The translations under genes and the position numbers were made by a program. The notes under the pieces were generated by a model. That model was not told the origin of the DNA. It searched no databases and worked only from the letters and a program-made list of their open reading frames with translations. From contig JAILNS010000015.1 of NCBI GenBank assembly GCA_024691305.1, positions 1-64,000 of the forward strand: DNA of 64,000 bases, written 5' to 3'. Source of the DNA: Lachnospiraceae bacterium (GTDB lineage: Bacteria > Bacillota > Clostridia > Lachnospirales > Lachnospiraceae). Each line of letters begins with the position of its first letter. Position 1 is the first letter of the stretch. This document shows positions 7,734 through 61,299 of this stretch, in pieces.

Positions 7734-7830
7734 AGGTACAATAAATAGCGGTGCTTTCACACAGGTACCGCTGTTTTTATATATAAGGTTACAATGATTG
7801 AACGTATCACAAGATGAGGAGATGAAAGAA

Positions 7831-8913: not shown

Positions 8914-8936
8914 ACATTTAAGTTAGGAGAAAGATC

Positions 8937-10100
8937 ATGTATAAATATCATTGCTTAAATCCGATCTCACCCGTAGGTACAAGTGAGTTCACAAGTAATT
9001 ATGCCAAGACAGAAGATGTTAACGAGGCAGCAGGCATTCTGGTAAGAAGTGCTTCAATGCATGACATGGAATTACCGAATTCGCTTTTGTGCGTGGCAAG
9101 AGCAGGAGCGGGAGTTAACAATATCCCTCTTGATAAATGTGCCGAAGCCGGAATAGTAGTATTTAATACTCCCGGTGCAAACGCAAACGCAGTTAAGGAA
9201 CTTGTTATTGCAGGTATGCTTCTCGCAGCCCGTGATATCAAAGGCGGTATGGACTGGGTGCTTGAAAATGCATCTGATGCCGATGTCGGAAAGAATGCAG
9301 AGAAGGCTAAGAAGGCATTTGCCGGTACTGAACTTATGGGTAAGAAACTCGGTATCATCGGTCTTGGAGCCATAGGTATCAAGGTGGCAAATACGGCGAG
9401 GCATTTTGGCATGGAAGTGTACGGATATGATCCCTACATATCGGTAGATGCCGCATGGAACTTAAGCCGTGATGTTAAGCATGTTGTCAATGTTATGGAT
9501 ATATATTCGGAGTGTGATTACATCACGATACACGTGCCGCTCATGGATGCGACCAAGGGTATGATCAGTGCGGAGGCAGTTGCCAAGATGAAACCCGATG
9601 CGGTGATCCTTAACTTTGCACGTGATCTGCTTGTTGATGAGCAGGCGGTCGTTGATGCTCTTGCAGCAGGTAAACTTCGTAAGTATGTATCCGATTTTGC
9701 AAACCCCGTAACGGCAGGTAAGCCCGGATGTCTCGTACTTCCTCATCTTGGAGCATCTACGGAAGAAGCTGAAGATAACTGTGCGCTTATGGCAGTTAAG
9801 CAGATGAAGGATTATCTTGAAAACGGTAATATCATAAACAGCGTTAACTATCCTAAATGTGATATGGGTGTTTGCGAGCAGGCAGGCCGAGTTGCCGTAC
9901 TTCATAAGAACATCTCAAACATGATAGGACAGTTTACATCTATCTGCGGTGATGCAGGCGTAAACATTTCCGATATGACCAATAAATCCAAAGGAGACTA
10001 TGCATATACTCTTATGGATCTTTCGAGCCCTGTATCGGATGAGATCATAGACAAGATGTCAGCCGTAAACGGCGTATTCAGAGTAAGAAAAGTTAAGTAA
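8937..10100 (+). CDS. serA: D-3-phosphoglycerate dehydrogenase
   Basis: Rossmann GKKLGIIGLGAIGIKVA, 2-hydroxyacid dehydrogenase signatures, C-terminal ACT; adjacent to serC. Confidence 0.93.
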   Translation: MYKYHCLNPISPVGTSEFTSNYAKTEDVNEAAGILVRSASMHDMELPNSLLCVARAGAGVNNIPLDKCAEAGIVVFNTPGANANAVKELVIAGMLLAARDIKGGMDWVLENASDADVGKNAEKAKKAFAGTELMGKKLGIIGLGAIGIKVANTARHFGMEVYGYDPYISVDAAWNLSRDVKHVVNVMDIYSECDYITIHVPLMDATKGMISAEAVAKMKPDAVILNFARDLLVDEQAVVDALAAGKLRKYVSDFANPVTAGKPGCLVLPHLGASTEEAEDNCALMAVKQMKDYLENGNIINSVNYPKCDMGVCEQAGRVAVLHKNISNMIGQFTSICGDAGVNISDMTNKSKGDYAYTLMDLSSPVSDEIIDKMSAVNGVFRVRKVK

Positions 10101-10615: not shown

Positions 10616-11845
10616 ATGGCCGATATCAGACCTTTCAGAGCATACAGACCAAGACCGGATCTGGCCTGGCAGATCGCTTCCTTACCCTATGATGTATATA
10701 GCAGAGAAGAGGCTTATGAACTCACACGCGGTGATGAGCATTGTTTTTTGCGTATAGACAGACCGGAAACCCAATTTGAACCCGGACATGATATGTATTC
10801 GGATGAGGTTTATGAGTGTGCCAAAGATATGCTGCGTAAGCAGATGGCAGACGGAGAGTTCGTTCAGGACAACGAAGCATATTATTATATTTACTCCCAG
10901 ACTTTTAAGGGGCGTACACAGACAGGCATTGTTGCCGTAAGTTCTGTGCAGGACTATGTTGACGGAGTGATCAAAAAGCATGAGAATACGCGTGCGGATA
11001 AAGAAGCGGACAGGATAAGGCACGTTGATACATGTAATGCCCAGACAGGTCCTATCTTTTTGGCATATCGAAGCTTAGATACGATCGAGCAGATCATAAG
11101 CCGGATAACACAGTCTAAGCCGGTTTATGATTTTGTCAAGGCAGATACCAGACAGCAGGTTTGGATAGTTTCTGCCATAGATGATGTTAACGGTATAAGA
11201 TCTTCTTTTGAAAAGATGGACAGCATCTATATCGCAGACGGCCATCACAGATGTGCTTCCGCAGTCAGGGTTGCACTAAACAGGCGAAAAGATCCGGAAG
11301 TTCCGGAGGATACCGAGGCAGAGTATTTTCTTTCCGTTCTGTTCCCGGACAGCGAGCTTATGATAATGGATTATAACCGTGTCATCAAGGATTTAAACGG
11401 CTTAAGCAAATCTGAGTTTATCGACAGGGTCGGACAGATATATGAAGTAAGTAAGACGGATGGGAGATTCAAACCCGGACAAAAAGGCGAATGCGGTATG
11501 TATATAGACGGTTCATGGTATAAGCTTAACTATGATATGTCTAAACTTACAGGAGATCCGGTTAACGATCTTGATGTAGCAATACTTCAGCAGAACGTAC
11601 TGGGTCCCATACTTGATATCAAGGATCCCAAAACGGATAAAAGGATAGATTTTGTAGGCGGGATAAGAGGTATAGAAGAACTTGAACGCAGATGTAAGGA
11701 AGATTGTGTATGTGCTTTTGCAATGTATCCTACCGATATTTCGGAACTGTTTGCGGTTGCAGATGCGCATCTTCTGATGCCGCCCAAATCCACATGGTTT
11801 GAACCTAAACTGCTAAGCGGATTATTTATACATGATCTGATGTAA
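10616..11845 (+). CDS. DUF1015 family protein
   Basis: MADIRPFRAYRPRPDLAWQIASLPYDVYSREEAYEL... YIADGHHRCASAVRV. Confidence 0.9.
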   Translation: MADIRPFRAYRPRPDLAWQIASLPYDVYSREEAYELTRGDEHCFLRIDRPETQFEPGHDMYSDEVYECAKDMLRKQMADGEFVQDNEAYYYIYSQTFKGRTQTGIVAVSSVQDYVDGVIKKHENTRADKEADRIRHVDTCNAQTGPIFLAYRSLDTIEQIISRITQSKPVYDFVKADTRQQVWIVSAIDDVNGIRSSFEKMDSIYIADGHHRCASAVRVALNRRKDPEVPEDTEAEYFLSVLFPDSELMIMDYNRVIKDLNGLSKSEFIDRVGQIYEVSKTDGRFKPGQKGECGMYIDGSWYKLNYDMSKLTGDPVNDLDVAILQQNVLGPILDIKDPKTDKRIDFVGGIRGIEELERRCKEDCVCAFAMYPTDISELFAVADAHLLMPPKSTWFEPKLLSGLFIHDLM

Positions 11846-47585: not shown

Positions 47586-48116
47586 ATGAATGTATTTTTA
47601 TCATACGGAGTTATTGTAGGAATTCTTGTAGGAATAATAATCGCGATCGTATTACTTAAGATGGCGAATACCGATCATAAGGTAAAGACAGAGTACGATG
47701 AGAGACAGGAAGCGATAAGAGGGAAAGCATATTGTTATTCTTTTTATACCACGGTCATCTATGAAGTGCTGATGATCATGTTATCGATGGCTGAGATCGA
47801 ATTACCCATAGAAGATTATATCCTTCATTTCGGAGGAATATTTGCCGGATGTCTGGTGCTTTGTGTTTACAGTATATGGCACGGTGTTTACTGGGGACTC
47901 AATAACGATCATAGGAGATACATGATAGTGATCGCAATCTGTATCGTATTAAACATGATCCCCGTAATAGGCATTTTCAGAGGCAATCTTTTCAGTGAAA
48001 ACGGTAAGATCGGAATGCCGATGTTAAATGTCATGGTACTTATCATGCTTATAGTTGTATGTGCAGAACTTTTGATAAAGAAATCTATGGATAAGAAAAA
48101 CGCAGAGGAGGACTGA
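47586..48116 (+). CDS. Integral membrane protein encoded with an XRE regulator
   Basis: Multiple TM segments; YDERQEAIRGKAYCYSFYTTVIYE. Confidence 0.7.
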   Translation: MNVFLSYGVIVGILVGIIIAIVLLKMANTDHKVKTEYDERQEAIRGKAYCYSFYTTVIYEVLMIMLSMAEIELPIEDYILHFGGIFAGCLVLCVYSIWHGVYWGLNNDHRRYMIVIAICIVLNMIPVIGIFRGNLFSENGKIGMPMLNVMVLIMLIVVCAELLIKKSMDKKNAEED

Positions 48117-48118
48117 AT

Positions 48119-48316
48119 ATGAAAAATCTCAGACTAAAATCAGCCCGTGCAGCAAAGGATCTTTCCCAGGATGAGCTTGCAAAACTCTGCGGTGTATCAA
48201 GACAGACCATGAGTGCCATAGAAAAGGGAGATTATAACCCGACAATAAACTTATGTATATCGATATGTAAGGCTTTGGATAAAACTCTTGATGACCTGTT
48301 CTGGGAAGAAGAGTAG
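48119..48316 (+). CDS. XRE-family helix-turn-helix regulator
   Basis: MKNLRLKSARAAKDLSQDELAKLCGVSRQTMSAIEKGDYNPTINLCISICKAL. Confidence 0.92.
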   Translation: MKNLRLKSARAAKDLSQDELAKLCGVSRQTMSAIEKGDYNPTINLCISICKALDKTLDDLFWEEE

Positions 48317-48351
48317 AAGTGTTTTAATAAAAAATGTTTGACAAAAAATGT

Positions 48352-48380
48352 TTGACATTTGTTTCGATAAGCGTTATGAT
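48352..48380 (+). promoter_or_regulatory. tRNA-Leu promoter
   Basis: TTGACA (48352-48357), 17-nt spacer, TATGAT (48375-48380). Confidence 0.8.
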
Positions 48381-48403
48381 ATCACTTGCGTCTGATGATG
48401 CAT

Positions 48404-48487
48404 GCGGAAGTGCTGGAACTGGCAGACAGGCTAGACTAAGGATCTAGTGTTGGAAACGACGTGAGGGTTCAAGTCCCTTCTTCCGCA
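48404..48487 (+). tRNA. tRNA-Leu(AAG), attachment site of the island
   Basis: GCGGAAG...CTAGACTAAGGATCTAG...GGTTCAAGTCC...CTTCCGCA; anticodon AAG; long variable arm. Confidence 0.93.
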
Positions 48488-48492
48488 GTAAG
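48471..48492 (+). repeat. attL core (AAGTCCCTTCTTCCGCAGTAAG)
   Basis: Identical to 58727-58748; overlaps the tRNA 3' end. Confidence 0.92.
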
Positions 48493-48619
48493 TTTTAAGG
48501 CTGTTCGTGTAATTGCACTGACAGCCTTTATTTATTGTATTTACGCGGGTTTCACTTCCTTCACTTTATTTATAACTCTTTACCTGATTGCATCTATATA
48601 CACCCTTTTTCGGTCAAAA

Positions 48620-48640
48620 AGTTGTCAAAAAGGTTGTCAA
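48620..48640 (+). repeat. Left arm-type sites, GTTGTCAA x2 at 12-bp spacing
   Basis: AGTTGTCAAAAAGGTTGTCAA; copies at 48621-48628 and 48633-48640. Confidence 0.65.
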
Positions 48641-48710
48641 AAAGAAGGTCAGAAACCTCGCATGAATACTGAAGATTCCGGGAATCGTTATTCTATAATA
48701 CTTTGCTGAA

Positions 48711-49397
48711 TTATGCCTTCGGTATATTCTTGAATAGATCATGCTTTTCATATACCCGCCTACACATATAGTAATGGTATAGATGCTGATAATTCCCCTG
48801 AAGAAGCTGATAATTCGTTTGTAGCCAGTCCGCAAAGTCTTTATATATTGCATGGCCTGTTTGTATTTTCGTGCGGTTTACAAGATCAGCCCAGTCTATT
48901 GTATTCCGGATATCACCCGCCTGATCCACGGACAACCCCTTGAACTCATATAGATACTTGTTAATCAATACAGCCATCTGTCTATTACGATTTTCAGCCT
49001 GTTCCGTTCTGCGCTCTCTGGATGCAATCTGACCGCGTTGCTGTGCTTCTTTATCCCTTCTATCCAGCTTCCTTTTATTCAGATCATTCACATATGCTTT
49101 CAGCTGTTCATAATTTCCTTGAAGTTGTTTATACTGTGCCTGTATCTGTTCTTTATCTGCCCGGAGCTGATTATTCTGTTCTGTTAAATCTGCAATCTTA
49201 TTTTCAAAAGCAGATAATAGAGAAGTGAAGCTTTCATAATCACTTTTACGCGCGTCAGTTTCATTATCCAAACTGATCTCGTGATCAGCCAAGAGATTGA
49301 ATAGATCGTTAGCTACTTTTGCTTTTCTTTCCAATAGTTTTCTATCATCATCAAAAATATCGCTAACCTGAGAAATGAGCTTATCAAAATCGACCAT
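48711..49397 (-). CDS. Coiled-coil hypothetical protein at left end of island
   Basis: ORF with NNQLRADKEQIQAQYKQLQGNYEQLKAYVNDLNKRKLDRRDKEAQQRGQ coiled coil; RBS aaaggggg. Confidence 0.7.
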   Translation of the reverse strand: MVDFDKLISQVSDIFDDDRKLLERKAKVANDLFNLLADHEISLDNETDARKSDYESFTSLLSAFENKIADLTEQNNQLRADKEQIQAQYKQLQGNYEQLKAYVNDLNKRKLDRRDKEAQQRGQIASRERRTEQAENRNRQMAVLINKYLYEFKGLSVDQAGDIRNTIDWADLVNRTKIQTGHAIYKDFADWLQTNYQLLQGNYQHLYHYYMCRRVYEKHDLFKNIPKA

Positions 49398-49536
49398 ATT
49401 AGTCCCCCTTTCACAGTGTCATTTAGTGAACTAAAAATACTTGTATAACAAAATTATCGCGCATGAAATTGACTACAGCAAGGCCATAGCTGGAAGCCTA
49501 TCCCTGTTGGATCTGAGTGCTTTCACGGCGATCTCA

Positions 49537-49565
49537 TTGAAAAGAAACGCTATAAACTGTATAAT
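49537..49565 (+). promoter_or_regulatory. Promoter of sigma-factor leader (L1)
   Basis: TTGAAA (49537-49542), 17-nt spacer, TATAAT (49560-49565). Confidence 0.75.
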
Positions 49566-49580
49566 TATGTAAACTGAATA

Positions 49581-49667
49581 AATACTATATACCTGATAGT
49601 ATTGAAACACGCTGAATGGGAGCACTCACAGATCGCAATGATCTGACTGTGTTCTTTTTCTTTTTTG
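49581..49667 (+). ncRNA. Structured 5' leader L1: ATACCT-loop hairpin plus terminator-like hairpin
   Basis: AATACTAT-ATACCTG-ATAGTATT (8 bp); then GCTGAATGGGAGCAC; then GAGCAC...CAGATC-gcaat-GATCTG...GTGTTC + TTTTTCTTTTTT, ending before the ATG at 49679. Confidence 0.6.
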
Positions 49668-49678
49668 AGGTGTACTGA

Positions 49679-50548
49679 ATGAAAAATGAAGAACTTGTTG
49701 AACTGATTCGAAGCGGTAAGGATGAAAAGGACAATCTGGAAGCCCTTTACAAACAGAACATGGGCTTTATATGGCAACAAACAGCAAGATATCAGGGTAC
49801 TTATGAAGCTGATGATTTAATGCAAGAAGCTTTTTTCACAATGTATGATGCCATAATGAGTTATGATCCCGAACGCAGCGCATTTATTCACTGGCTTGGA
49901 TATTGCATACAATACAAGATGCCCCAACAACTATTAAAGCTGAATGATGTGAAAATGCCTGTAGCTATGCAGATGCGATTCTATTCCTATAAGAACTTTA
50001 GAAACAAATTCAAACAGGATCACGGTCACAGCCCTACAGATCAGGAATGTATTGAAGCACTTGATATATCTGATAAGGATATGAAGAAACTGAAAAGAAT
50101 TGAAAAGCTACTTGCTAAGGAATACTTATCAGAAACTATAGGTGAAGGAATCACCCTGGAAGAAGCTATCGCAGATGAATCTGATCTTTATCAGATAATA
50201 GAAGATGAAATCGATCATGATACATATATGAAATGGATCAATGAAGCAATGAAGGGATTAAGTGATAGACAAAAGACTGTAGTAAATCTCCGTATGAGCG
50301 GTAAGACGTATGCAGAGATATGCGAACAGCTATCTATCAAACACCGTCAGTCAGCACAACAGACAGAAAAGTCAGGACTTAGGAAAATCAGAGACAACCT
50401 ACAGAAATACGGAACTCTTCAGACGTTACATGATGATTTCTATAAAGGTGGTTTACATCAATTCAACAGAACATTCACATCAACTCCGGAACGCATAGTA
50501 ATCAGGCATCTATCACCACAGATGGATGATACAACGTGTGACGCTTGA
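49679..50548 (+). CDS. Sigma-70 family RNA polymerase sigma factor
   Basis: Region 2: QGTYEADDLMQEAFFTMYDAIMSYDPERSAFIHWLGYCIQYKM; region 4: LSDRQKTVVNLRMSGKTYAEICEQLSIKHRQSAQQTEKSGLRKIR. Confidence 0.85.
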   Translation: MKNEELVELIRSGKDEKDNLEALYKQNMGFIWQQTARYQGTYEADDLMQEAFFTMYDAIMSYDPERSAFIHWLGYCIQYKMPQQLLKLNDVKMPVAMQMRFYSYKNFRNKFKQDHGHSPTDQECIEALDISDKDMKKLKRIEKLLAKEYLSETIGEGITLEEAIADESDLYQIIEDEIDHDTYMKWINEAMKGLSDRQKTVVNLRMSGKTYAEICEQLSIKHRQSAQQTEKSGLRKIRDNLQKYGTLQTLHDDFYKGGLHQFNRTFTSTPERIVIRHLSPQMDDTTCDA

Positions 50549-50562
50549 ACACTTGCATTTTA

Positions 50563-50591
50563 TTGACGAAAAACGATTTAACAAGTATAAT
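50563..50591 (+). promoter_or_regulatory. Promoter of leader L2
   Basis: TTGACG (50563-50568), 17-nt spacer, TATAAT (50586-50591). Confidence 0.8.
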
Positions 50592-50610
50592 AATAGATGT
50601 AATTAAATAC

Positions 50611-50688
50611 GTGCTGTAATACCTAACAGCACAAGTAATATGCCGAACGGGGGCACCATGAGAAACATATCTCACGGTGTCTTTTTTG
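50611..50688 (+). ncRNA. Structured 5' leader L2: ATACCT-loop hairpin plus terminator
   Basis: GTGCTGT-AATACCTA-ACAGCAC (7 bp); then GCCGAACGGGGGCAC; then GGCACCATGAGA-aacata-TCTCACGGTGTC + TTTTTT. Confidence 0.62.
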
Positions 50689-50708
50689 TTTGTAAAGGAA
50701 TCCGGACA

Positions 50709-50951
50709 ATGATCAGTAAGAGCAAAATTATAAAGTGTTCAGTTTGTGGAAAAGAATATAAGAGCCGAGCCAATAACAGTAAGTATTGTTCATTGTATTG
50801 TATGGACTTTGCAAGAAGGCAGAAACGATCTTGTTGGATTGAATCACATCCGAACTACTACCGTGATTATATGCGACAGTATCGGAGACGTGATGCATCC
50901 CACATCAGAAAACAGGAACAGATTCAACTGAGCATAGGAGAACAAACATGA
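50709..50951 (+). CDS. Small zinc-ribbon protein
   Basis: MISKSKIIKCSVCGKEYKSRANNSKYCSLYCMDFARRQKR; CxxC...CxxxC. ATG at 50709 preferred because the track's 50640 start lies inside the terminator leader. Confidence 0.75.
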   Translation: MISKSKIIKCSVCGKEYKSRANNSKYCSLYCMDFARRQKRSCWIESHPNYYRDYMRQYRRRDASHIRKQEQIQLSIGEQT

Positions 50952-51541
50952 TCAAATCAATCGAGCAGACGGAACAAAGAATCAATGAAGTTATCTCAGA
51001 CCGCAAGAAAGACATAGCCGAGCGTGAAGCCCAGCTTGAAGAATCACGTAAGGCATTAAGTGAAGCTGAAGATAATATCAGCAAGGCTATCGAAACGGAC
51101 AACGCTGAACTTTACAGAAAAGCAAAGAAAGAAAAGGCAGACGCTGAAGATGATATTGAACTCAGAGAAAAGCGTCTTGAACTTCTGAAGAAACAACCGC
51201 TTATAGATCAGTCTGAATATAACAAGCGGTGTCAGGCTATCTTTACCGATCTTGATGCTATGACAGTAAGACAGCAGACTGAGATTGTAAAAATAGTTGA
51301 CCAACTAAAAGCTATCTATGATGAAGCAAATGAGAGCATTATCAAAGGGAATGAGATCCTTGAACGGTGGCAACGTGAAGTATATCGTAATGCAGACCGA
51401 AGCAAATCTCCGGAAGGTAAGATCATGAAACTATCCCATGAAACAATGCACTATAACAATTTTAATGTAACTACCTTTATAAGAAATCTATTGGAAGATG
51501 GATATTATCAGGGATTCCTTAATGCTCAAAGGGGGAACTGA
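50948..51541 (+). CDS. Coiled-coil hypothetical protein, translationally coupled
   Basis: ATGA overlap with upstream gene; EREAQLEESRKALSEAEDNISKAIETDNAELYRKAKKEKADAEDDIELREKRLELLKK. Confidence 0.75.
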   Translation: MIKSIEQTEQRINEVISDRKKDIAEREAQLEESRKALSEAEDNISKAIETDNAELYRKAKKEKADAEDDIELREKRLELLKKQPLIDQSEYNKRCQAIFTDLDAMTVRQQTEIVKIVDQLKAIYDEANESIIKGNEILERWQREVYRNADRSKSPEGKIMKLSHETMHYNNFNVTTFIRNLLEDGYYQGFLNAQRGN

Positions 51542-51543
51542 AG

Positions 51544-51816
51544 ATGCTGAAGTTTAATGATAAAGGGATGCCGGTCTATACTGATCCATCATCTAAACTG
51601 ACAACAAGCATAAAGTTGTCTATTCTTGATACCGAACGCAGAGAACTTGAAAACAAGCGACAGAATGCAGAGGCTTGTATTCAGTCAGAACTCAAACAGA
51701 CTGAAGCGGATATGCGAGAAAAATACCGTGCTGAACTGGGTATAGGTGTAATGGGTGAATCTTCATATATGTCAGCCATGAAGGATTTTACAAGGTGCCT
51801 ATTATCTTCCAAATAG
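51544..51816 (+). CDS. Small hypothetical protein
   Basis: ORF MLKFNDKGMPVYTDPSSKLTTSIKLSILDTERRELENKRQNAEACIQSEL in the same operon. Confidence 0.7.
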   Translation: MLKFNDKGMPVYTDPSSKLTTSIKLSILDTERRELENKRQNAEACIQSELKQTEADMREKYRAELGIGVMGESSYMSAMKDFTRCLLSSK

Positions 51817-51834
51817 CAGAAGGAACATACTATC

Positions 51835-51993
51835 ATGCTGTCAATACTTGCAATATGTGGACAGTACATTGATAAGACACTAAAAGCACTAAATCCTCTA
51901 TATGCGACTGTTAATCATATTATTTCAGTATGTCAGAACAGTGATCCAACTAAGTTCGATAATCTTAACTTTCACACAGATGCTGATACTTGA
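51835..51993 (+). CDS. 52-aa hypothetical protein
   Basis: Below track threshold; MLSILAICGQYIDKTLKALNPLYATVNHIISVCQNSDPTKFDNLNFHTDADT*; agaagga RBS. Confidence 0.5.
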   Translation: MLSILAICGQYIDKTLKALNPLYATVNHIISVCQNSDPTKFDNLNFHTDADT

Positions 51994-52093
51994 AGAAAAG
52001 CAACAGGATCACGGAGCAACGCATCACTCACACTGACACCAACCTCATACTACTACTTGCATATGACTGGATGCACTTTTGAAAAAATAAAAA

Positions 52094-52152
52094 TACTATC
52101 CTCATACCTGGGGGGATGGTACCCTACCCATAGGGGCGGAGAAGTTCCCGCC
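52094..52152 (+). promoter_or_regulatory. Structured leader L3: third ATACCT-loop hairpin followed by GC-rich hairpin
   Basis: TACTATCCTC-ATACCTGG-GGGGATGGTA (10 bp including two T.G wobbles), then GGCGG-AGAAGTTC-CCGCC. Confidence 0.5.
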
Positions 52153-52215
52153 GCACACTGTACATAAATGTCGAGACACTTGTTACAACGAAAACACACA
52201 TTATAAGGTGATACT

Positions 52216-52752
52216 ATGAAGAAGATATGCCCTATCTGCAATACTGAATTCATAGCCGGAAAAGGAAACGTGAAATACTGTTCCCCTGAATGCCGTAGAA
52301 AGGCCGAATATGCCCGTCACAACGAATGGGCGACTCGTACTAACTATGCAGAGAAAAAGCGCGTAGAAATGCGTCAGAGACGCTTAAAAGAAGCAGAAGC
52401 ACACAGGGAACACCTCAGACAGATGCATGATGAACGTATAAGGCAGATTCAGGAAGATAATGAACGTGCTGATCAGGAGCTTCACGAACGTGCTGAAGCT
52501 GGTGATAATGAAGCACTGATGAAACTGGCTGAAAAGGCTGGTGATCGAGCTGGGTATTATAAATACTTTGCATTATACGAGATAGAGCGTGAAGAAAAAG
52601 ACTTCGGCCGGAGATCCACGCGGACTGTCAATGGAATAAGTGTCTATGATCCTGACTTCGCAGAACTTGTTATGAAGTCCATAGAGGAAACGGGCCAATG
52701 TATTAGCAAAATAAACGGACAAGGAATCAAGATTGATGCCATGCAGATATAA
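52216..52752 (+). CDS. Zinc-ribbon protein with charged helical body
   Basis: MKKICPICNTEFIAGKGNVKYCSPECRRKAEYARHNEWATR; AAGGTGAT RBS. Confidence 0.78.
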   Translation: MKKICPICNTEFIAGKGNVKYCSPECRRKAEYARHNEWATRTNYAEKKRVEMRQRRLKEAEAHREHLRQMHDERIRQIQEDNERADQELHERAEAGDNEALMKLAEKAGDRAGYYKYFALYEIEREEKDFGRRSTRTVNGISVYDPDFAELVMKSIEETGQCISKINGQGIKIDAMQI

Positions 52753-52809
52753 AGTTGAATAATTATGTAAACCATTATATAATTATTGTATGGTAAGAAT
52801 CTTCCAAGC

Positions 52810-53553
52810 TTAAAGGCTGTCGCTGGTCTCCTCGGTGGCAGTCTTTTTTTTATGCTTCTCCACCTTATCTACAAGCCATTTTTGTATTGAATCCATCAAC
52901 GTACGTCGGAACAGTTTGACCGGATCAGGTAAAGTATATTGCATATAAGTTTCTTGATCAAAAAACATTACCTTATCAAGATCATCACCGTCACGGACTA
53001 TTCCAAAGGCTTTTACATCGTCTAAAGAATTGATGTGCTGAATGTTTTCAGTGTGTAAGTAATCATACATTACAGACAAAATAGGTTCGTCACCATTGTA
53101 ATCGTCACTCATATAGTTATGATCATACATATCTTCGAGGATATAATTGATCATAGCGATATGTTTCCATGAATGATTGTCAATGCCTGAGCCAAAACTC
53201 ATACCGCTTGATGTCTTGCCGGATGTTTCTTTTATTCGTTTTAATACTTCGATTGATTTACTACTTAGCCCCGTAATCTCAGATATCCTATCATATTCTA
53301 TAGTGAAATTTTTATATTTTGGCAAAAGCAGATACTCAGGATCAACTCCATAGAAATCACATATCGAATACAAGCTTTTCCATGGGATTGTTAAATCATC
53401 AGGGCTTAACCATTTATATATACTGGATATAGATACATCCAAAGCTTCAGCCAGTTCTTCATTCGTAGGCACTTTTCCGTTTATTTCTTTTCTTTTCAAG
53501 CCCTTAAATCTTTCAATAAATGTCTCTTTGATTCTTGTTTTATAATCATTCAT
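52810..53553 (-). CDS. Phage-type HTH repressor-like regulator
   Basis: KVPTNEELAEALDVSISSIYKWLSPDDLTIPWKSLYSICDFYGVDPEYLLLP; divergent from the excisionase-like gene. Confidence 0.78.
   Translation of the reverse strand: MNDYKTRIKETFIERFKGLKRKEINGKVPTNEELAEALDVSISSIYKWLSPDDLTIPWKSLYSICDFYGVDPEYLLLPKYKNFTIEYDRISEITGLSSKSIEVLKRIKETSGKTSSGMSFGSGIDNHSWKHIAMINYILEDMYDHNYMSDDYNGDEPILSVMYDYLHTENIQHINSLDDVKAFGIVRDGDDLDKVMFFDQETYMQYTLPDPVKLFRRTLMDSIQKWLVDKVEKHKKKTATEETSDSL
52816..52851 (+). terminator. Terminator of the zinc-ribbon transcript, inside the 3' end of the convergent repressor gene
   Basis: GGCTGTCGCTGG-tctcct-CGGTGGCAGTC + T8. Confidence 0.65.
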
Positions 53554-53653
53554 TTTTTATATCTCCCTTTATTCCATTTCAATTATATGCTAATGTGCAA
53601 AAATAAAATTTTAAATCTATTACAATTACAATACACCAAGAATAGAATATAAA

Positions 53654-53668
53654 CAAGGTCAGACCTTG
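53654..53668. promoter_or_regulatory. Candidate operator palindrome
   Basis: CAAGGTC-A-GACCTTG in the divergent intergenic region, just downstream of TTACAA-17-TAGAAT. Confidence 0.5.
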
Positions 53669-53716
53669 ACGCATAAAGACAAAGGAACGAAATGAAAAGA
53701 AAGTGAGGATAATTTA

Positions 53717-53920
53717 ATGCACAAAACAGCAATCTCTTTAGATTCCAATTGTCGGTATATGAGTATAGATAATGCTGTTACATATACCGGACTGGGAACT
53801 AACACCCTTCGGAAACTTGCGGAAGATGCCCAGGCGATCAGGCGCGTAGGCAGACGGGTACTGGTGGATAAGATAGTTCTGGATAAGTATCTCGAATCAC
53901 AGGCATCACAGGAGAATTGA
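53717..53920 (+). CDS. Excisionase/DUF6462-like DNA-binding protein
   Basis: RYMSIDNAVTYTGLGTNTLRKLAEDAQAIRRVGRRVLVDKIVLDKYLES. Confidence 0.8.
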   Translation: MHKTAISLDSNCRYMSIDNAVTYTGLGTNTLRKLAEDAQAIRRVGRRVLVDKIVLDKYLESQASQEN

Positions 53921-53921
53921 G

Positions 53922-54470
53922 GTGATCAGCTTGGGAGACTTCAAAAAACAGAATCGAGATAATCTTCCTATCGGCATAAAGGAAGAAAAGCGATTCTTTC
54001 AAATGTACGCAACAAGGAAGAACGCTACTCCAAAGGGATGGAATGATCCTGATACATGGCTGGAACTGGAAGATATCCCAGATGATAAGCCTTTTGGATA
54101 TGTTTTGACCGACAGCCAGCTTTTAATCGATTTTGACCATATCTTTGATGATAACGGCAATATGGATGCAGAAGTCAGAAAGGTATATGAACGAATCAGG
54201 GCATGCGGTGATACATATACGGAGCTATCCATGTCCGGAAAAGGGCTGCATATGATTGTAGATCTGGGCGATTATGCGGACTGTTTTCAGCCTATAGTTA
54301 ATGATGATGATCATATTATCACACCAACTATGCCTATTGATGCATACAAAGCACTGACCAAAGAAGAAAAGGATAACACACCGAAAGTGGAATTATTCTA
54401 CAACTTGAAGGGCAAGTATGTATTTCTGACCGGAGATATATATGAAGGGGGCGTGAATCATGATCAGTAA
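53922..54470 (+). CDS. AEP-like primase/polymerase domain protein (GTG start)
   Basis: LLIDFDHIFDD (hhhDhD), ELSMSGKGLHMIV (sGxGxH), VELFYNLKGKYVFLTGDIY. Confidence 0.75.
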   Translation: MISLGDFKKQNRDNLPIGIKEEKRFFQMYATRKNATPKGWNDPDTWLELEDIPDDKPFGYVLTDSQLLIDFDHIFDDNGNMDAEVRKVYERIRACGDTYTELSMSGKGLHMIVDLGDYADCFQPIVNDDDHIITPTMPIDAYKALTKEEKDNTPKVELFYNLKGKYVFLTGDIYEGGVNHDQ

Positions 54471-55947
54471 AAGTGAAATCGTAATAGGGGAAACATCTGC
54501 CGAGATATTCCGCGTATGTCTGAAGATGATTGATGAATGTCACGGAGACAAAGCGCCCGCATATATCGAAAAAGCATCCACTATCAAATGCAATCTTGAT
54601 GGAGCTACAAAAGAAGCCATCCTTGATGCCCTGAATTACATCAATCCTGATGATCGTGACACATGGATACATGTCGGCATGGCAATATATAATATCGGAC
54701 TTCCCTTCGATCTATGGGATAACTGGAGCAAAGGATCAGACAAGTATAACGATGGCCGAGATGAAAGCACATCTGATAAATGGAACGGGTTTATCCGGAG
54801 TAAATCACGCTGGAATGCTGGAACTATATTCAGACTGGCCAAGGATAGCGGATGGATTGATATCAGGGGAAAGAACAAAGCACCAAAAACAGAGATATCT
54901 ATCAGGAGTGTAAAAGATATTCAAGAATCTGATATCCCGCCTATCGGCTTTTCCGTAGCAGGCATCATTCCCAATGGATATACAGTCATATCTGCTGCTT
55001 TCAAAATCGGTAAATCATGGCTTGTTTTATGGATATGCACCCGTGTAGCACAGGGCTTACCAGTATGGGGCATGTCTACCGAGAAAGGAAGCGTATTGTA
55101 TCTCGATCTTGAAGGCTGTGAGAACCATACAAAAGAGAGAATCAATATGATATTACAAGGTGAACCCGCGCCCAGCAATTTCTATGTATCATATGATGCA
55201 CCAACGCTGGATGATGGCCTGATTGACTATCTTGATACAGCATATCAGCAGATTCCGGAGCTGAAACTGATTGTTATTGATGTACTGGCTATGGTGCAAT
55301 ATCAAACCAAACGGGGCGAAACAGCCTACCAGAACGACTACAGAACAGGAACAGCCCTAAAGCACTTTGCGGATGATAAAGGTATATCCATAGTGGCGGT
55401 CACTCATACAACCAAGAGCCTACACCCGGATGATATATTCATGAATACCACCGGCACAAATGGAGTGACAGCTTCAGCCGATGCAATTATCACTATAGCC
55501 AAGGAAAAACGACAAGATAACAACGCTCTTATGGCTATTACGGGCAGACGAGTGCGCGAACAGTATTTCAATATCCATTTAGATAGTAATTGTATCTGGC
55601 AACTTGATGGAAATGCCGAAGATTCTGAAGGCATATCAGAAGAATTGAAGCAACAGGCGGAATATGAAGCCAGTGAGATCAGAAATGCTGTCATTGCTGT
55701 TGCGATGAATGGAACTCAGGAGCTACGAGCCCGGAGCATAATCGAAAAGGCTTTCGATCAGGGGATCTATATCACCCAGAGTCCTAAGGATGTAGGACTA
55801 TTCATTCACAGGAATCAAGTTAGATTCATGAAATACGATAACGTGAAGATATCCATCATCAAAAATGGCCAAGGATCATCATTATACAGACTTGAAAACG
55901 CAGCCGGAATGGATCACAACCCGTTTATCGATACGATAACAACCTGA
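54460..55947 (+). CDS. PriCT-2 plus RepA-like AAA/RecA-fold helicase
   Basis: LNYINPDDRDTWIHVGMAIYN...SDKWNGF (PriCT-2-like); ISAAFKIGKSWLVLWICTRVAQG (Walker A); IVIDVLAMV (Walker B). Confidence 0.82.
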   Translation: MISKSEIVIGETSAEIFRVCLKMIDECHGDKAPAYIEKASTIKCNLDGATKEAILDALNYINPDDRDTWIHVGMAIYNIGLPFDLWDNWSKGSDKYNDGRDESTSDKWNGFIRSKSRWNAGTIFRLAKDSGWIDIRGKNKAPKTEISIRSVKDIQESDIPPIGFSVAGIIPNGYTVISAAFKIGKSWLVLWICTRVAQGLPVWGMSTEKGSVLYLDLEGCENHTKERINMILQGEPAPSNFYVSYDAPTLDDGLIDYLDTAYQQIPELKLIVIDVLAMVQYQTKRGETAYQNDYRTGTALKHFADDKGISIVAVTHTTKSLHPDDIFMNTTGTNGVTASADAIITIAKEKRQDNNALMAITGRRVREQYFNIHLDSNCIWQLDGNAEDSEGISEELKQQAEYEASEIRNAVIAVAMNGTQELRARSIIEKAFDQGIYITQSPKDVGLFIHRNQVRFMKYDNVKISIIKNGQGSSLYRLENAAGMDHNPFIDTITT

Positions 55948-55980
55948 TGCATGCATATTACCCACCCTATTACCGTTTAT

Positions 55981-56040
55981 TTTGTTGATTTTGTTGATAG
56001 GTGTCTATCTGGAATCAACAGTATCAACAGAATCAATAGT
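55981..56040. repeat. 9-bp iteron cluster, candidate replication origin
   Basis: TTTGTTGAT x2 (55981-55998) facing ATCAACAGT, ATCAACAGA, ATCAATAGT (56014-56040). Confidence 0.6.
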
Positions 56041-56078
56041 GATATTTATACTACACCGCAAAGGCGGAGAAAGAGAGA

Positions 56079-56396
56079 ATGATTATGAATGACACAACTG
56101 AAAACAATTTCACAAAAGATCCAGCTACGCAAAGGGCAGAGTTTCTGAAACTTATGAGCGAAAATTGTGAGACTATCATCAAATCTCGCGAAGCTGTAAA
56201 ACAGATTAGAGAATTATTTGCTGAAGGGACGACATGCAGTATCACAGTGTATCAGGTAAATCAGGTTATAGAGCATTGCGATGTGTCTATCCTGCCAGAT
56301 ACTGTTCCGGGATTGATGGACTTGATTGAGACTGACATCCAGAATCGTGAAGCCCTTGTAAAAGATTTAGGCCGTCAGATATCAGAGGTATTATGA
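56079..56396 (+). CDS. Small hypothetical protein
   Basis: ORF MIMNDTTENNFTKDPATQRAEFLKLMSENCETIIKSREAV. Confidence 0.65.
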   Translation: MIMNDTTENNFTKDPATQRAEFLKLMSENCETIIKSREAVKQIRELFAEGTTCSITVYQVNQVIEHCDVSILPDTVPGLMDLIETDIQNREALVKDLGRQISEVL

Positions 56397-56584
56397 TGTT
56401 CCCTATTATAAACCAGCAACAGCTTGACGATGTAATGTCATCCCGGATCAGGCGCGAACGTGCCAAGATCCACCAGAAGCATGCCGAAGAACTTCAGCCT
56501 TTCATTGATAACCTTGACCGGATGCGTGATGATCTCATAGCACTCCGGGATAGATGGAAGGAAGCACGGGAAAATGATAGTTGA
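56393..56584 (+). CDS. Small hypothetical protein, coupled by ATGA overlap
   Basis: MMFPIINQQQLDDVMSSRIRRERAKIHQKHAEELQPFIDNLDRMRDDLIALRDRWKEA. Confidence 0.65.
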   Translation: MMFPIINQQQLDDVMSSRIRRERAKIHQKHAEELQPFIDNLDRMRDDLIALRDRWKEARENDS

Positions 56585-56622
56585 TTTATGTTGTAACATA
56601 ACGTATAATTTATGTTGTAACA
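56581..56622 (+). promoter_or_regulatory. Promoter with tandem operator-like repeats upstream of the RHH gene
   Basis: TTGATT (56581-56586)-17-TATAAT (56604-56609); ATTTATGTTGTAACA at 56584-56598 and 56608-56622. Confidence 0.65.
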
Positions 56623-56648
56623 GAAATCTAACGGAAAGGAGCTGAAAA

Positions 56649-56840
56649 ATGTCACCACGAACGGGCAGACCTACCACAGATCCCAAGACTGTTCATGTTG
56701 GATATCGCATGAGCCCTACAACAGTACAGAAACTTGATGAATGTTGTGAAGCGCTTAATATGAGTAAGTCTGATATTATCCGTCTGGGAATCGAAAAGGT
56801 ACACGCGGAATCTTTCAAGATCGAGCGCAAAAATAAATAA
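56649..56840 (+). CDS. Ribbon-helix-helix (CopG-like) regulator
   Basis: TVHVGYRMSPTTVQKLDECCEALNMSKSDIIRLGIEKVHAES. Confidence 0.78.
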   Translation: MSPRTGRPTTDPKTVHVGYRMSPTTVQKLDECCEALNMSKSDIIRLGIEKVHAESFKIERKNK

Positions 56841-56892
56841 GCGGTCTGAATAGTTTGGCGACCATCAACCGCTTATTTACCCCGTTTAGGTA

Positions 56893-56981
56893 GATAACAA
56901 GAATCAGTCCACGGAGATTCCGAAGAATGACCTGATATCTTCTTTCATTCTAACGTATTTCCGTCACTGATTCAAGTTATC
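56893..56981. other. Long imperfect inverted repeat / structured noncoding element
   Basis: GATAAC-aa-GAATCAGT-cca-CGGA ... TCCG-tc-ACTGATTC-aa-GTTATC, with inner AGAATG/CATTCT. Confidence 0.6.
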
Positions 56982-57025
56982 CCACCATTACAACTGAATA
57001 TGGAACGTAAAGAACAATAGTCTAT

Positions 57026-57340
57026 ATGAAAGGGAAAACTATGGAACAGAATAGACAATATATTGCTTTTAACGTATCAAAAGAGGAAGCCCTTGCTGTT
57101 ATAGAACAGCTGGAAGCAGAACCGGGAACAAAGCGCTTCATTGATGGCCTGAAAACAGCCAAGACATTCAGACGCGCGAAAAATGGCGGACTACTCTCCA
57201 GTGAAGCCAAGTATCTGAGCGCGCGAGTGTATTCCGGAGCTGATGATCTGTATGATCTGATGGCCACTGCCTACAATATCGGATATCGCCGAGGATATCT
57301 TCAATCAGAGCGTAACCACAGAAAGGGGGCAAACTTATGA
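57026..57340 (+). CDS. Small hypothetical protein
   Basis: ORF MKGKTMEQNRQYIAFNVSKEEALAVIEQLEAEPGTKRFIDGLKTAKTFRRAK. Confidence 0.65.
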   Translation: MKGKTMEQNRQYIAFNVSKEEALAVIEQLEAEPGTKRFIDGLKTAKTFRRAKNGGLLSSEAKYLSARVYSGADDLYDLMATAYNIGYRRGYLQSERNHRKGANL

Positions 57341-57468
57341 AGCAGCTTCTATCAAGAATGATCCTGATACTGACATGGAAACGCATGGATGCTATTCAAT
57401 ACTATAACTATTGCAAGAAGCATGATATTCCGCTGGATGAAATACCGGAGAGAATGAAAGGAAGGTGA
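57337..57468 (+). CDS. 43-aa protein preceding the integrase
   Basis: Below track threshold; ATGA overlap; MKQLLSRMILILTWKRMDAIQYYNYCKKHDIPLDEIPERMKGR*. Confidence 0.6.
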   Translation: MKQLLSRMILILTWKRMDAIQYYNYCKKHDIPLDEIPERMKGR

Positions 57469-57472
57469 TTAT

Positions 57473-58585
57473 ATGGCAAGACAGAAAAAGCGTGCTGACG
57501 GGCGCTTCATGAAATATACCAAGTGTAATGGCAAGAGATACTATGTATATGGCCGGACTAAAGATGAAGTTGATGAAAAGCTGAATGAATTGAAAGAAAA
57601 ACTGAAGAAGGGGATCCAGGATCATGATGATCCTACTCTGGATAGTTTCCACGTTAGATGGACTGAGAACAGACGCGACAGCATAAAGGAATCAACGCTC
57701 AGATGCCAGCACTTCCAGTACAATAGCTGTGCTGATGTTCTTATCAATGGCAAGAGGTTAGGTGATTATAGACTGTCAGAGATCAAAGCGGATGATATCC
57801 GGCAAGTACAGAAAGCGCTTCAGAACAGTGAAAAGAAGAATCGAACACAGACTATAAATGATAAGATTGCTGTTCTATCTCATATCTTCCATGATGCACT
57901 GGTGGAAAGATACATTGATTATAACCCGTGTGTAGCTGTTAAACCGCTGAAGCGGACAGAAGAACGCGCAAGAGATACCATCCACCGGGCATTGACGATT
58001 GACGAACAGCAGACCTTTTTCCAAAATGCTGAGAAATCATATTATTATGATGTGTTTAGGATGGCAATTCTGACCGGAATGCGTATCGGAGAAATCGGAG
58101 CACTGTATCAATCGGATATCTATGATGATGCTATCCATATCGCGCGGACTATAACCAAGACCGAAACGGGCGGATATCAAATCGGTGAGGACACCAAGAC
58201 CATACACGGAAAGAGAACGATCCCCCTGAACGATCAGATCAGAGAGGTTATAGACCACCAGAAGCAAATCAATAAGATGCTGGATGGTGATAAGATCGTT
58301 GCTATGAACAGTCCGATATTCAAAGCACCGGAAAGAGGATTGCTGATGGCTACTCCATTAGATAGAGAAATCGGAAGGATATGCAAGAGGACAGGGATCG
58401 AAAAGTTTACAGCGCACGCTTTCAGGGCAACTTTTGCAACCAGGTGCATAGAACAGGGCATTGAGCCGAGAACACTACAAGAACTACTTGGACATGCTGA
58501 TTTTGGTATAACAATGAATCTATACGGACATGTCACGGATAACACGCTGGAAACAGCCATGAACAGCTTGAGCATAGCACTATAA
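57473..58585 (+). CDS. int: Tyrosine recombinase / integrase
   Basis: ILTGMRIGEIGAL (Arg I); FTAHAFRATFATRCIEQGIEPRTLQELLGHADFGITMNLYGHV (HxxR, LGH, Tyr). Confidence 0.95.
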   Translation: MARQKKRADGRFMKYTKCNGKRYYVYGRTKDEVDEKLNELKEKLKKGIQDHDDPTLDSFHVRWTENRRDSIKESTLRCQHFQYNSCADVLINGKRLGDYRLSEIKADDIRQVQKALQNSEKKNRTQTINDKIAVLSHIFHDALVERYIDYNPCVAVKPLKRTEERARDTIHRALTIDEQQTFFQNAEKSYYYDVFRMAILTGMRIGEIGALYQSDIYDDAIHIARTITKTETGGYQIGEDTKTIHGKRTIPLNDQIREVIDHQKQINKMLDGDKIVAMNSPIFKAPERGLLMATPLDREIGRICKRTGIEKFTAHAFRATFATRCIEQGIEPRTLQELLGHADFGITMNLYGHVTDNTLETAMNSLSIAL

Positions 58586-58608
58586 ACAGATGATACCAGA
58601 GATAGAGA

Positions 58609-58641
58609 GAAGCGGGATAGACACAATGCCCGCTTCTTTTT
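58609..58641 (+). terminator. Terminator after int
   Basis: GAAGCGGG-atagacacaatg-CCCGCTTC + TTTTT. Confidence 0.85.
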
Positions 58642-58667
58642 ATGCGCTTTCATATAGTATTCGTAGA

Positions 58668-58688
58668 AGTTGTCAAATAGGTTGTCAA
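58668..58688 (+). repeat. Right arm-type sites, GTTGTCAA x2 at 12-bp spacing
   Basis: AGTTGTCAAATAGGTTGTCAA; copies at 58669-58676 and 58681-58688. Confidence 0.65.
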
Positions 58689-58726
58689 TCGTGCATAGAT
58701 GCTGATATATAAAGGGGTGTCAGACA

Positions 58727-58748
58727 AAGTCCCTTCTTCCGCAGTAAG
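58727..58748 (+). repeat. attR core
   Basis: AAGTCCCTTCTTCCGCAGTAAG, identical to 48471-48492. Confidence 0.92.
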
Positions 58749-58775
58749 AGAGAAGTCTTATGACTTCTCTTTTTA
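58749..58775 (+). terminator. Displaced native terminator of tRNA-Leu
   Basis: AGAGAAGT-cttatg-ACTTCTCT + TTTTATTTTT directly after attR. Confidence 0.75.
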
Positions 58776-59873
58776 TTTTTCATTTAAGTCTATTCCGTGG
58801 TTTAGCAAAAACTCATGCCATGGTTCATATGAAGATCCTTTTAAGTGGATATCGTCAAATGTAAGATCCGCCCTAAGCCCCCCGGCTTCATCATCGACGA
58901 CTTCATTGACATCGATGTAGTATATGCGGATATTGTCGGCCAGTGTCTTTATTGCTTCGTTTCGCACATTTATGTTTGTGTTGTTATAAAGCTGGTCGGT
59001 GGCGCTCTTTGAGGAAGAAACATGCATTATCCCGTTTATGAATATGATGGCTTCGGGCTGAGCCTGTCTTATTCTGTCGACAACTTCGGAATAAGCATCT
59101 TTAAAGTATTCGGAGTTCCCGACACCGATTTCATTTATCCCGACCATTATATAGATCTTGGAGTAGTTTTTTTCTTCAAGCACTTCCCAGAGGGACTTTT
59201 GAGTCCCGTCAAAGGAACGGATCTGTTTTCCGTCAAGCAGATTAAAAATCGTTAGAGCTTTTTTGACATAAAAATCTGCTCTTTCATCAATCGGCTCACA
59301 GTATTGTGAAAGACCTACCATTCGTGAATCTCCGACAAAGAGAGCATCATTAAAGTAATCATCATCTACTGTTATGAATTCATGAGTCATATCATCGAAA
59401 GTACGCTCGGGTTCGGCTTCTTCCGGGATTACATCCGTTTGACCTGCGTTTGCTGCATCGGTATCTTCCAAGCTGTCCGAAGTAGCATCGGCATCAGATA
59501 TATCCGTTGAAACTGCGTCGGTATTAAGCTCGGTAACTTCGGGAGCGCTGGAGGCGGTATTTAAGTCAGTATCACCATTTTGAACGGGTATATCTTCGTT
59601 GGAAGTTTCACCGGTTTCCGAAGAGACCGAAGTATTTGCAGAGGATGATCCTTTCCACGGATAAATGCCGTTTCGTAAGCCCTGCATTACGATACCTGCC
59701 GTCGGTGTATGGATAAGGTCGTATTGAGGAGATGCATATATCGAAGGCATTCCGATAAGACCTGTTAAGGTGACTACTGCGACGGTCAGCATTACAGACA
59801 TAAGAAGTATATAGTTCTTTTTTTCCGGCTTTTTTTTATGCTGTTTTCTTTTTTGATCTTTTGTATTATTCAT
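58773..59873 (-). CDS. SGNH/GDSL-like hydrolase, membrane anchored
   Basis: DALFVGDSRMVGLSQYC ... IYIMVGINEIGVGNSEYF ... LTFDDIHLKGSSYEPW; N-terminal TM. Confidence 0.8.
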   Translation of the reverse strand: MNNTKDQKRKQHKKKPEKKNYILLMSVMLTVAVVTLTGLIGMPSIYASPQYDLIHTPTAGIVMQGLRNGIYPWKGSSSANTSVSSETGETSNEDIPVQNGDTDLNTASSAPEVTELNTDAVSTDISDADATSDSLEDTDAANAGQTDVIPEEAEPERTFDDMTHEFITVDDDYFNDALFVGDSRMVGLSQYCEPIDERADFYVKKALTIFNLLDGKQIRSFDGTQKSLWEVLEEKNYSKIYIMVGINEIGVGNSEYFKDAYSEVVDRIRQAQPEAIIFINGIMHVSSSKSATDQLYNNTNINVRNEAIKTLADNIRIYYIDVNEVVDDEAGGLRADLTFDDIHLKGSSYEPWHEFLLNHGIDLNEK

Positions 59874-59898
59874 GATCTGAATTTAGTGCTCCTGTGGA

Positions 59899-61299
59899 TC
59901 AAAAACTCATATACATAAAAGGATTTGAAGCACTTCCGGCAATGCTGTATATGCTTATCCAAAATAAGATCAGCATGATGAGCGCAACTTTTATGGTGTA
60001 CTTGTTTTTATTCAATACTCTTTTGAGAGAAGGGATAAGAAAGAACAGCGCAGGTAACATATATATCCATCCCTCTCGAAGCAGGGAAACATAATCGGTT
60101 TCATTTATAACGGAAATGGGAGCACTGATATTTATAAGCCTCATGAAATAGTGCAAAAGGTCACTCGAAGATGTGAGAGCAAATATGATCCATGTGAGCG
60201 GGATAAGAATGAGTACATTGAAACGCCCCATTATGCGGCCGAAAACTCCGGCTCCGGTAAGTACGAATTTCTCAAATATTATAATGAGCAGAAGTGATAC
60301 TGCCCATAATATGTAATTAAAGCTAAGACCGTGCCAGAGTCCCGTGAGGAGCCAAACTATACTAAGATTAATAACGGTACGGGTACTTCCTTTTTTGCTT
60401 CCCCCAAGAGGTATATATATATAATCCTTGAACCATTCTCCCAGAGTCATATGCCATCTTCTGTAGAAATCCGATACCGAAGAAGCAAAATAGGGATTCT
60501 TGAAGTTACGGATAAACTTAAAACCAAACATCATTCCTATACCGGCAGCCATAAGTGAGTATCCCCAGAAATCGTAATAAAGATCCATGGAATAGACAAA
60601 AACACCTATCCAGGCCAAAGGGGTAGAGAGGTTTTCGTATCCTATCGTACCTATTTCACGCCAGATCATCGCAAGATGGTCTGCAATAACGACCTTAAAA
60701 AACAATCCGGTTATGAAATATATCAGACCTTCTTCTATATATCCCATGGCGTTTTTAATACGGCTTTTTGCGGATTCATTTGAAACTATAAGTCTGTTAG
60801 GGTTATCCAGTTCATAGGTAAAACGACTTATGGGACCGGAAATTATCTGTGTAAATAAAGATACGTATAATGTAAGGTCGGTCAGAGAGCCTCTGCGAAT
60901 GTTACCTCTGTACAGATCGCATTGATAGGATATCAGTTTGAATATGTAGAAACTCATTCCAAGCGGGAGCATAAACTCAATAACAAGCAAGTCTCCTATA
61001 TTAACCGGTTTCATAAAGGCGGCGCATAATTTAAATGCAATTAAGGCAGATGCATTTATGACCAGTGAAAATATAAGGGCGGGTTTCTTTTTTGCGGAAA
61101 CGGGAAATGAGAGCCCATAATTAATGATTATCGATAATAAAAGGATGATCAGATCGGGGCCGGCGTTTATGGCATAAAATATCAGGCCGGCTACAGAAAG
61201 TACGGGTGACCTGAATTTATACGGAACGATATAGTATATCAGAAGAATTACCGGAAGTACCCTGAATATGAATGTGAGGTCGGAAAATTGCATATTCAT
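59899..61299 (-). CDS. MBOAT family O-acyltransferase
   Basis: LPLGMSFYIFKLISYQCDLYRG, DFYRRWHMTLGEWFKDYIYIPLGGSKKG, WLLTGLWHGLSFNYILWA. Confidence 0.93.
   Translation of the reverse strand: MNMQFSDLTFIFRVLPVILLIYYIVPYKFRSPVLSVAGLIFYAINAGPDLIILLLSIIINYGLSFPVSAKKKPALIFSLVINASALIAFKLCAAFMKPVNIGDLLVIEFMLPLGMSFYIFKLISYQCDLYRGNIRRGSLTDLTLYVSLFTQIISGPISRFTYELDNPNRLIVSNESAKSRIKNAMGYIEEGLIYFITGLFFKVVIADHLAMIWREIGTIGYENLSTPLAWIGVFVYSMDLYYDFWGYSLMAAGIGMMFGFKFIRNFKNPYFASSVSDFYRRWHMTLGEWFKDYIYIPLGGSKKGSTRTVINLSIVWLLTGLWHGLSFNYILWAVSLLLIIIFEKFVLTGAGVFGRIMGRFNVLILIPLTWIIFALTSSSDLLHYFMRLINISAPISVINETDYVSLLREGWIYMLPALFFLIPSLKRVLNKNKYTIKVALIMLILFWISIYSIAGSASNPFMYMSF

Follow-up and report, generated by a model that had tools for sequence, protein, structure and literature searches.

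Organization of the island

The window, a 64,000-nt stretch of a Lachnospiraceae contig, contains a mobile island of 10.26 kb bounded by a perfect 22-bp direct repeat (Table 1). The sequence-only reading had placed these att repeats at exactly the same positions. The left copy overlaps and completes the 3' end of tRNA-Leu(AAG). Both island ends also bear short TTGTCAA-type direct repeats, which that reading had overlooked and which are as expected for arm sites of the integrase.

Table 1. Genes and sites of the tRNA-Leu island (window positions).
Feature	Position	Strand	Evidence or remark
tRNA-Leu (AAG), integration target	48403..48488	+	ARAGORN
attL core AAGTCCCTTCTTCCGCAGTAAG	48471..48492	+	perfect repeat; first 17 nt = attP of L188
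Arm-type repeats (GTTGTCAAA), left end	48613..48652	+	in L188, attP lies between arrays of the counterpart GTGGTCAAA
Coiled-coil protein ccA	48711..49397	-	no homologue found in relatives; possibly cargo
Sigma-70-type factor with conserved C-terminal tail	49679..50548	+	PF04542 6e-9; element-group marker
Zinc-ribbon protein zn1	50709..50951	+	35% identical homologue adjoins TerL in L188
All-helical protein ccB	50948..51541	+	homologues in L077, L096, L109, L130, L188, L192, L195
orf90	51544..51816	+	ORF call
Candidate cos-like packaging site (ATACCTGGGGGGATGGTACCC...)	52104..52154	+	interval where relatives have HNH/cos-like site/TerS
Zinc-ribbon protein zn2	52216..52752	+	phrog_2862 1e-12
HTH repressor, divergent from xis	52810..53553	-	domain search
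Excisionase-like, DUF6462/Tn916-Xis-like	53717..53920	+	2e-12; homologues in L188, L130, L190, L195
AEP-type primase domain	53922..54470	+	48% identity with the N-terminus of an 811-aa primase-helicase in L190
PriCT_2 + AAA_25 helicase	54460..55947	+	4e-17, 6e-19
Candidate replication origin (GTTGAT x2 / ATCAAC x2 + ATCAAT, inverted)	55984..56037		directly 3' of helicase gene
orf105	56079..56396	+	ORF call
orf63	56393..56584	+	ORF call
Ribbon-helix-helix (RHH) regulator	56649..56840	+	phrog_876 5e-14
orf104	57026..57340	+	36% homologue in L188
orf43	57337..57468	+	ORF call
Tyrosine integrase (int)	57473..58585	+	PF00589 3e-22; phrog_1 1e-61; 76% identical in L188
Arm-type repeats, right end	58667..58688	+	repeat search
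attR core	58727..58748	+	perfect 22-bp direct repeat

Pfam and PHROGs searches confirmed the integrase, divergent repressor, excisionase (Xis), primase, helicase, sigma factor, and two zinc-ribbon open reading frames (ORFs) that had been read from the letters. The same searches of the island proteins gave no match to a relaxase, portal, capsid, or terminase, which bears out the claimed absence of a relaxase, portal, capsid, and large terminase. No virion gene was found in the island, and no prophage surrounds it.

Two palindrome-like copies, TTATGTTGTAACATAA and TTATGTTGTAACAGAA, lie at 56584-56625, directly upstream of the RHH gene, and are probable autoregulatory operators of that gene. Scans of genome and viral collections with the helicase returned no close relatives, and tblastn of the sigma factor and ccB against INPHARED returned none. 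A defense role for the island proteins was considered and rejected, as PADLOC gave weak matches only, mostly of the coiled-coil type. The predicted structures of ccB (pTM 0.39) and zn2 (pTM 0.43) were too weak for a fold search.

Genus members were searched for a clean empty site. In relatives, the tRNA-Leu is unoccupied, and no straight alignment was obtained because the flanking GDSL gene sits on the opposite side of tRNA-Leu. Compared with other genus members, the window has the tRNA-Leu, and the island with it, in reversed orientation to the neighboring genes (48100-48500 and 58749-59900). The GDSL gene is 5' of the tRNA in G041 and G399, and an HTH gene faces the reversed tRNA in G398.

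The host assembly is 2.66 Mb in 46 contigs. A search for a helper prophage, as the sequence-only reading had advised, came up empty: neither a phrog_9 terminase nor an HK97-type capsid was found in this 92.7%-complete assembly. A single weak phrog_2 match was discarded, as it sits among housekeeping genes. The other host integrase-family matches that were opened had no adjoining phage morphogenesis genes by the seeds used. Another host integrase (L428, G000:C23:8000-17852; 7800-9244), an L071-type match (2e-72) with an RHH gene upstream, is near a contig end and may be a piece of a second island.

Relatives in excised or apparently circular form

The closest relative, L188 (IMGVR_UViG_3300031760_005953), is 10.5 kb long and was found by an IMG/VR scan with the integrase alignment. 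It shares with the island the att core, the integrase (76% identity), Xis (46%), orf104 (36%), zn1 and the RHH regulator (35% each), and ccB (24%). On the L188 contig, int is followed by AAGTCCCTTCTTCCGCA, the 17-nt core of the island att, and then by sequence 73% identical to the left end of the island. This order is that of an attP junction and, judged by it, L188 is the excised (or tandem) form of such an element. L188 differs from the island in encoding a TerS-like protein and TerL (phrog_9 8e-51), in its D5-type primase-helicase, whose helicase is of another type, and in the absence of a sigma gene from its 10.5 kb of sequence. It has only three ORFs of at least 250 aa, and no portal or capsid gene was recognized.

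Other relatives have direct terminal repeats. L130 (11.1 kb; 24 bp) and the pair L195 (13.0 kb) and L190 (13.8 kb) (107 bp) carry homologous int, xis, and sigma genes, and L130 and L195 encode ccB, TerS, TerL, sigma, integrase, Xis, and primase. L107, L116, L117, and L127 are 8.4-9.5 kb long and also have the sigma gene. Such repeats point to DNA that is circular or was assembled as circular, not to particles.

The island has lost its terminase, or never had one. It could be a decayed satellite or prophage remnant that once had TerS and TerL like L188, L130, and L195, lost them, and is now immobile. This would account for the missing terminase cassette of the nearest relatives, in place of which there is an ~400-bp gap (51817-52215) and zn2, and it would suit an island that no other genus member searched carries. 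However, the att repeats are perfect, and int, xis, the repressor, primase, helicase, and sigma factor are full-length open frames. Moreover, tblastn with the relatives' terminases detected no terminase remnant or pseudogene in the island, and terminase-less sister elements are common. Decay is an unlikely explanation.

Candidate origin and packaging site

The candidate replication origin is an iteron cluster of four exact copies and one near copy of GTTGAT/ATCAAC, in a 2+3 inverted arrangement without a clear AT-rich spacer. This 6-mer itself clusters so in 0 of 500 simulations, and some 6-mer reaches four copies within 80 nt in about one third of simulated islands. The cluster is convincing because several relatives have iterons at the equivalent position 3' of the helicase gene, where 3-8 copies of different iterons are found. 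These are CTGTTAAA in L188 (five copies), CGGCAACC in L195 (six), TATACCCA in L190 (eight), and AATGCACA in L138 and L140 (three). Iterons were not seen in L130 and L116 by the same test. The cluster noted in the sequence-only reading is real, though statistically modest taken alone.

The ~400-bp gap is preceded by ccB and orf90, contains ATACCTGGGGGGATGGTACCC at 52104, and is followed by zn2. In L188, ccB is followed by a 77-aa ORF and then by ATACCTGGGGGGAGTGG at the contig end, and TerS is at the contig start. L195 and L142 have an HNH gene followed by a stretch rich in G/C runs, then TerS and TerL. Homologues of ccB adjoin a terminase gene or GC-rich region in several relatives. The 13-nt word ATACCTGGGGGGA is the longest common to the syntenic intervals of the island and L188, and a shared word of at least 13 nt occurred in 3 of 2000 simulated interval pairs. 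The segment at 52104-52154 is tentatively put forward as a candidate cos-like site. As a general cos signature, ATACCTGGGGGGA was rejected. The motif alone is not diagnostic because its matches in viral contigs are mostly coding or unrelated and few precede a TerS-like gene, which besides the L188 contig is the case only in L279 (and in L397, at 427 nt).

A sigma factor shared by a group of elements

Homologues of the sigma factor are only 22-33% identical and have a common C-terminal tail, approximately G-x-x-x-F-x-x-T-W-T-S-S-T-E-R, or "(T)SSTERxA". The tail in the island is a variant, FNRTFTSTPERIVI, and reads TSTPERIVI. Approximately 34 strong matches were found in 397 Lachnospiraceae genomes. 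With ~20 kb taken per genome locus, a tyrosine integrase was present in 25 of 31 fetched sigma loci; the 20 control loci, which surround different sigma genes of the same family, had none. In an order-wide sample, scores rose above the apparent housekeeping sigma level in Lachnospiraceae members only; the extra-family matches of this profile search were set aside, as their scores and lengths look like those of housekeeping sigma factors. Most named genome records with the sigma gene are from Lachnospiraceae; the rest are some other Clostridia and a few records with different labels. A tail-pattern scan of IMG/VR yielded 53 sigma loci, five of which, 8.4-11.1 kb long, end in direct terminal repeats. 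The sigma factor marks a large, widespread, Lachnospiraceae-centered, and apparently undescribed element group. The island fits the definition of this group, as it combines a tailed sigma factor with a tyrosine integrase and a replication module and has no adjacent set of TerL, portal, and capsid genes. The sigma and zinc-ribbon genes, taken as oddities in the sequence-only reading, are indeed present, but the former is a group marker and a homologue of the latter adjoins TerL in L188.

A second, truncated sigma gene (L077:11743-12129) and an apparent primase-helicase fragment (10616-10915) lie within a related island. This arrangement suggests recombination between such elements.

Phage-assembly cassettes in sister elements

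Sister loci were drawn from IMG/VR and named genomes, giving 105 sigma loci that are not dereplicated. An integrase is present in 73, MCP in 23, tape measure (TMP) in 28, TerS in 21, and TerL in 4. An MCP, TMP, TerS, TerL, or tail gene occurs in 65 of the 105, usually one kind, and MCP and TMP occur together in only two. The remaining 40 have no morphogenesis gene by the seeds used. Hallmark genes were confirmed by PHROG matches.

Scaffold and major head protein genes are found beside sigma in L082 (phrog_422 5e-55), L087, L107, and L117, and an MCP homologue in L085. In these five small elements, the major head protein gene, mostly with scaffold, is upstream of sigma. A phrog_2 TerL match was found neither in these capsid-bearing records nor near the sigma gene. 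Beside sigma, L078 has a tape measure and tail chaperone, L079 has TerS and a tape measure (6e-42, 1e-252), L092, L094, and L140 have HNH and TerS-like genes, and L071 has a tail protein (2e-97). No assembly cassette was recognized in L077, L095, L096, or the island. Small sigma elements with TMP include L078/L104, L079, L093, L111, L119, L126, and L128, one with a tail chaperone and some with TerS. They are candidate tail-hijacking satellites in Clostridia.

TerL was searched with phrog_2 and phrog_9, the latter added because phrog_2 alone misses the TerL of L188. In 29 sigma-bearing genomes, comparison of contigs and coordinates revealed no TerL within 15 kb of the sigma gene. Many of these genomes have TerL elsewhere, so the sigma loci do not resemble ordinary prophages.

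The elements may form a sigma-defined satellite group in which the sigma factor is the late switch and each member has at most one swappable cassette, the island being a stripped member; we hold this somewhat short of an even chance. The cassettes could then be scaffold plus capsid, tape measure with or without tail chaperone, HNH-TerS, or TerS plus TerL, an assignment put forward with similar reserve. Equally provisional is the proposal that the island keeps the cos-like site, with coiled-coil and zinc-ribbon proteins replacing the terminase cassette.

Comparison with known mobile elements

PICIs are satellites of ~12-15 kb with an integrase, a replication module, and a master regulator, and without phage structural or lytic genes (PMC6092414). 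In these elements, int lies to the left of the repressor in the same orientation, xis-pri-rep is to the right, and the origin, 3' of rep, has an AT-rich region between two sets of iterons (PMC6092414). They carry a TerS homologue or a helper pac/cos sequence, and some rely on cos, not TerS (PMC6092414). Their att site is never occupied by prophages, and they show helper-dependent induction, interference, and high-frequency packaging (PMC6092414).

Like the Gram-positive (SaPI-type) PICIs, the island has an integrase, an Stl-like repressor divergent from xis, and a primase/helicase followed by a candidate iteron origin, and no structural or lytic genes. It could be a Gram-positive PICI of the classical kind whose genes have been reordered, since its repressor/xis/primase/origin module and its size resemble those of PICIs (PMC6092414). 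However, int closes the rightward replication operon beside att, as had been claimed and as the ORF order confirms, instead of standing to the left of the repressor in the same orientation. The island also has no TerS, and its closest relatives found are unlabeled elements. A reshuffled PICI is quite improbable. Other differences from PICIs are the island's own sigma and zinc-ribbon genes and its size, somewhat small at 10.26 kb; for packaging, only a candidate cos-like site is present. PICI membership is not claimed here, given the different position of int and the lack of TerS. The satellite logic proposed in the sequence-only reading stands, mostly through the relatives: an excised-form TerS/TerL relative that shares the att core, terminally repeated contigs, and sisters with a single assembly gene.

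The absence of any structural gene would also suit an integrative element without its own relaxase that is mobilized in trans via oriT by a conjugative element, and oriT-only hitchhikers do exist (PMC11389934). An integrative mobilizable element would itself have a relaxase, and none was found in the island. The relatives, however, carry terminase, capsid, or tail genes, and we regard this route as very improbable.

Satellites may bring capsid or tail genes, as cf-PICIs and the PLEs of Vibrio cholerae do; the latter carry genes for TMP and TAC and assemble chimeric tails (PMC12987554). Sister elements seem to do likewise. L082, L085, L087, L107, and L117 carry MCP, mostly with scaffold, in the manner of cf-PICIs, and others carry TMP, one with TAC (L078/L104), a likeness to PLEs in gene content alone. 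The island differs from both, as it has neither a capsid-forming gene set nor TMP.

Proposed life cycle

The island is probably an integrative, self-replicating, helper-dependent phage satellite that is PICI-like in logic, with helper, induction, and packaging all putative. The tyrosine integrase and Xis would move it in and out of the tRNA-Leu 3' end, as its anatomy and the attP-bearing relative suggest. The repressor would keep xis, primase, helicase, and int silent until de-repression, presumably by a helper phage. The island would then be excised as a circle and replicated by its own AEP primase/helicase from the iterons 3' of the helicase gene. Its sigma factor may switch on a late set of zn1, ccB, orf90, and zn2, a role proposed because the same kind of sigma gene adjoins MCP, TMP, or TerS/TerL in sisters. 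Because terminase-bearing relatives have a cos-like site and TerS in the corresponding interval, the DNA would most likely be packaged by a helper phage terminase acting on a cos-like site near 52104-52154, a step with moderate evidence; the reading of this site as cos is held at slightly less than even odds.

To our knowledge, the known satellite families are few and come mostly from Proteobacteria and Gram-positive cocci. No account of elements of this kind from gut Clostridia turned up in the open-access literature. The first report of satellites with tail genes dates only from 2026 (PMC12987554), and tape-measure genes are present in 28 of the 105 sigma loci described here. A single sigma marker gene would make the group findable by a simple search. 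As the members seem to swap cassettes for capsid, tail, and packaging, the acquisition of hijacking modules by satellites would become testable.
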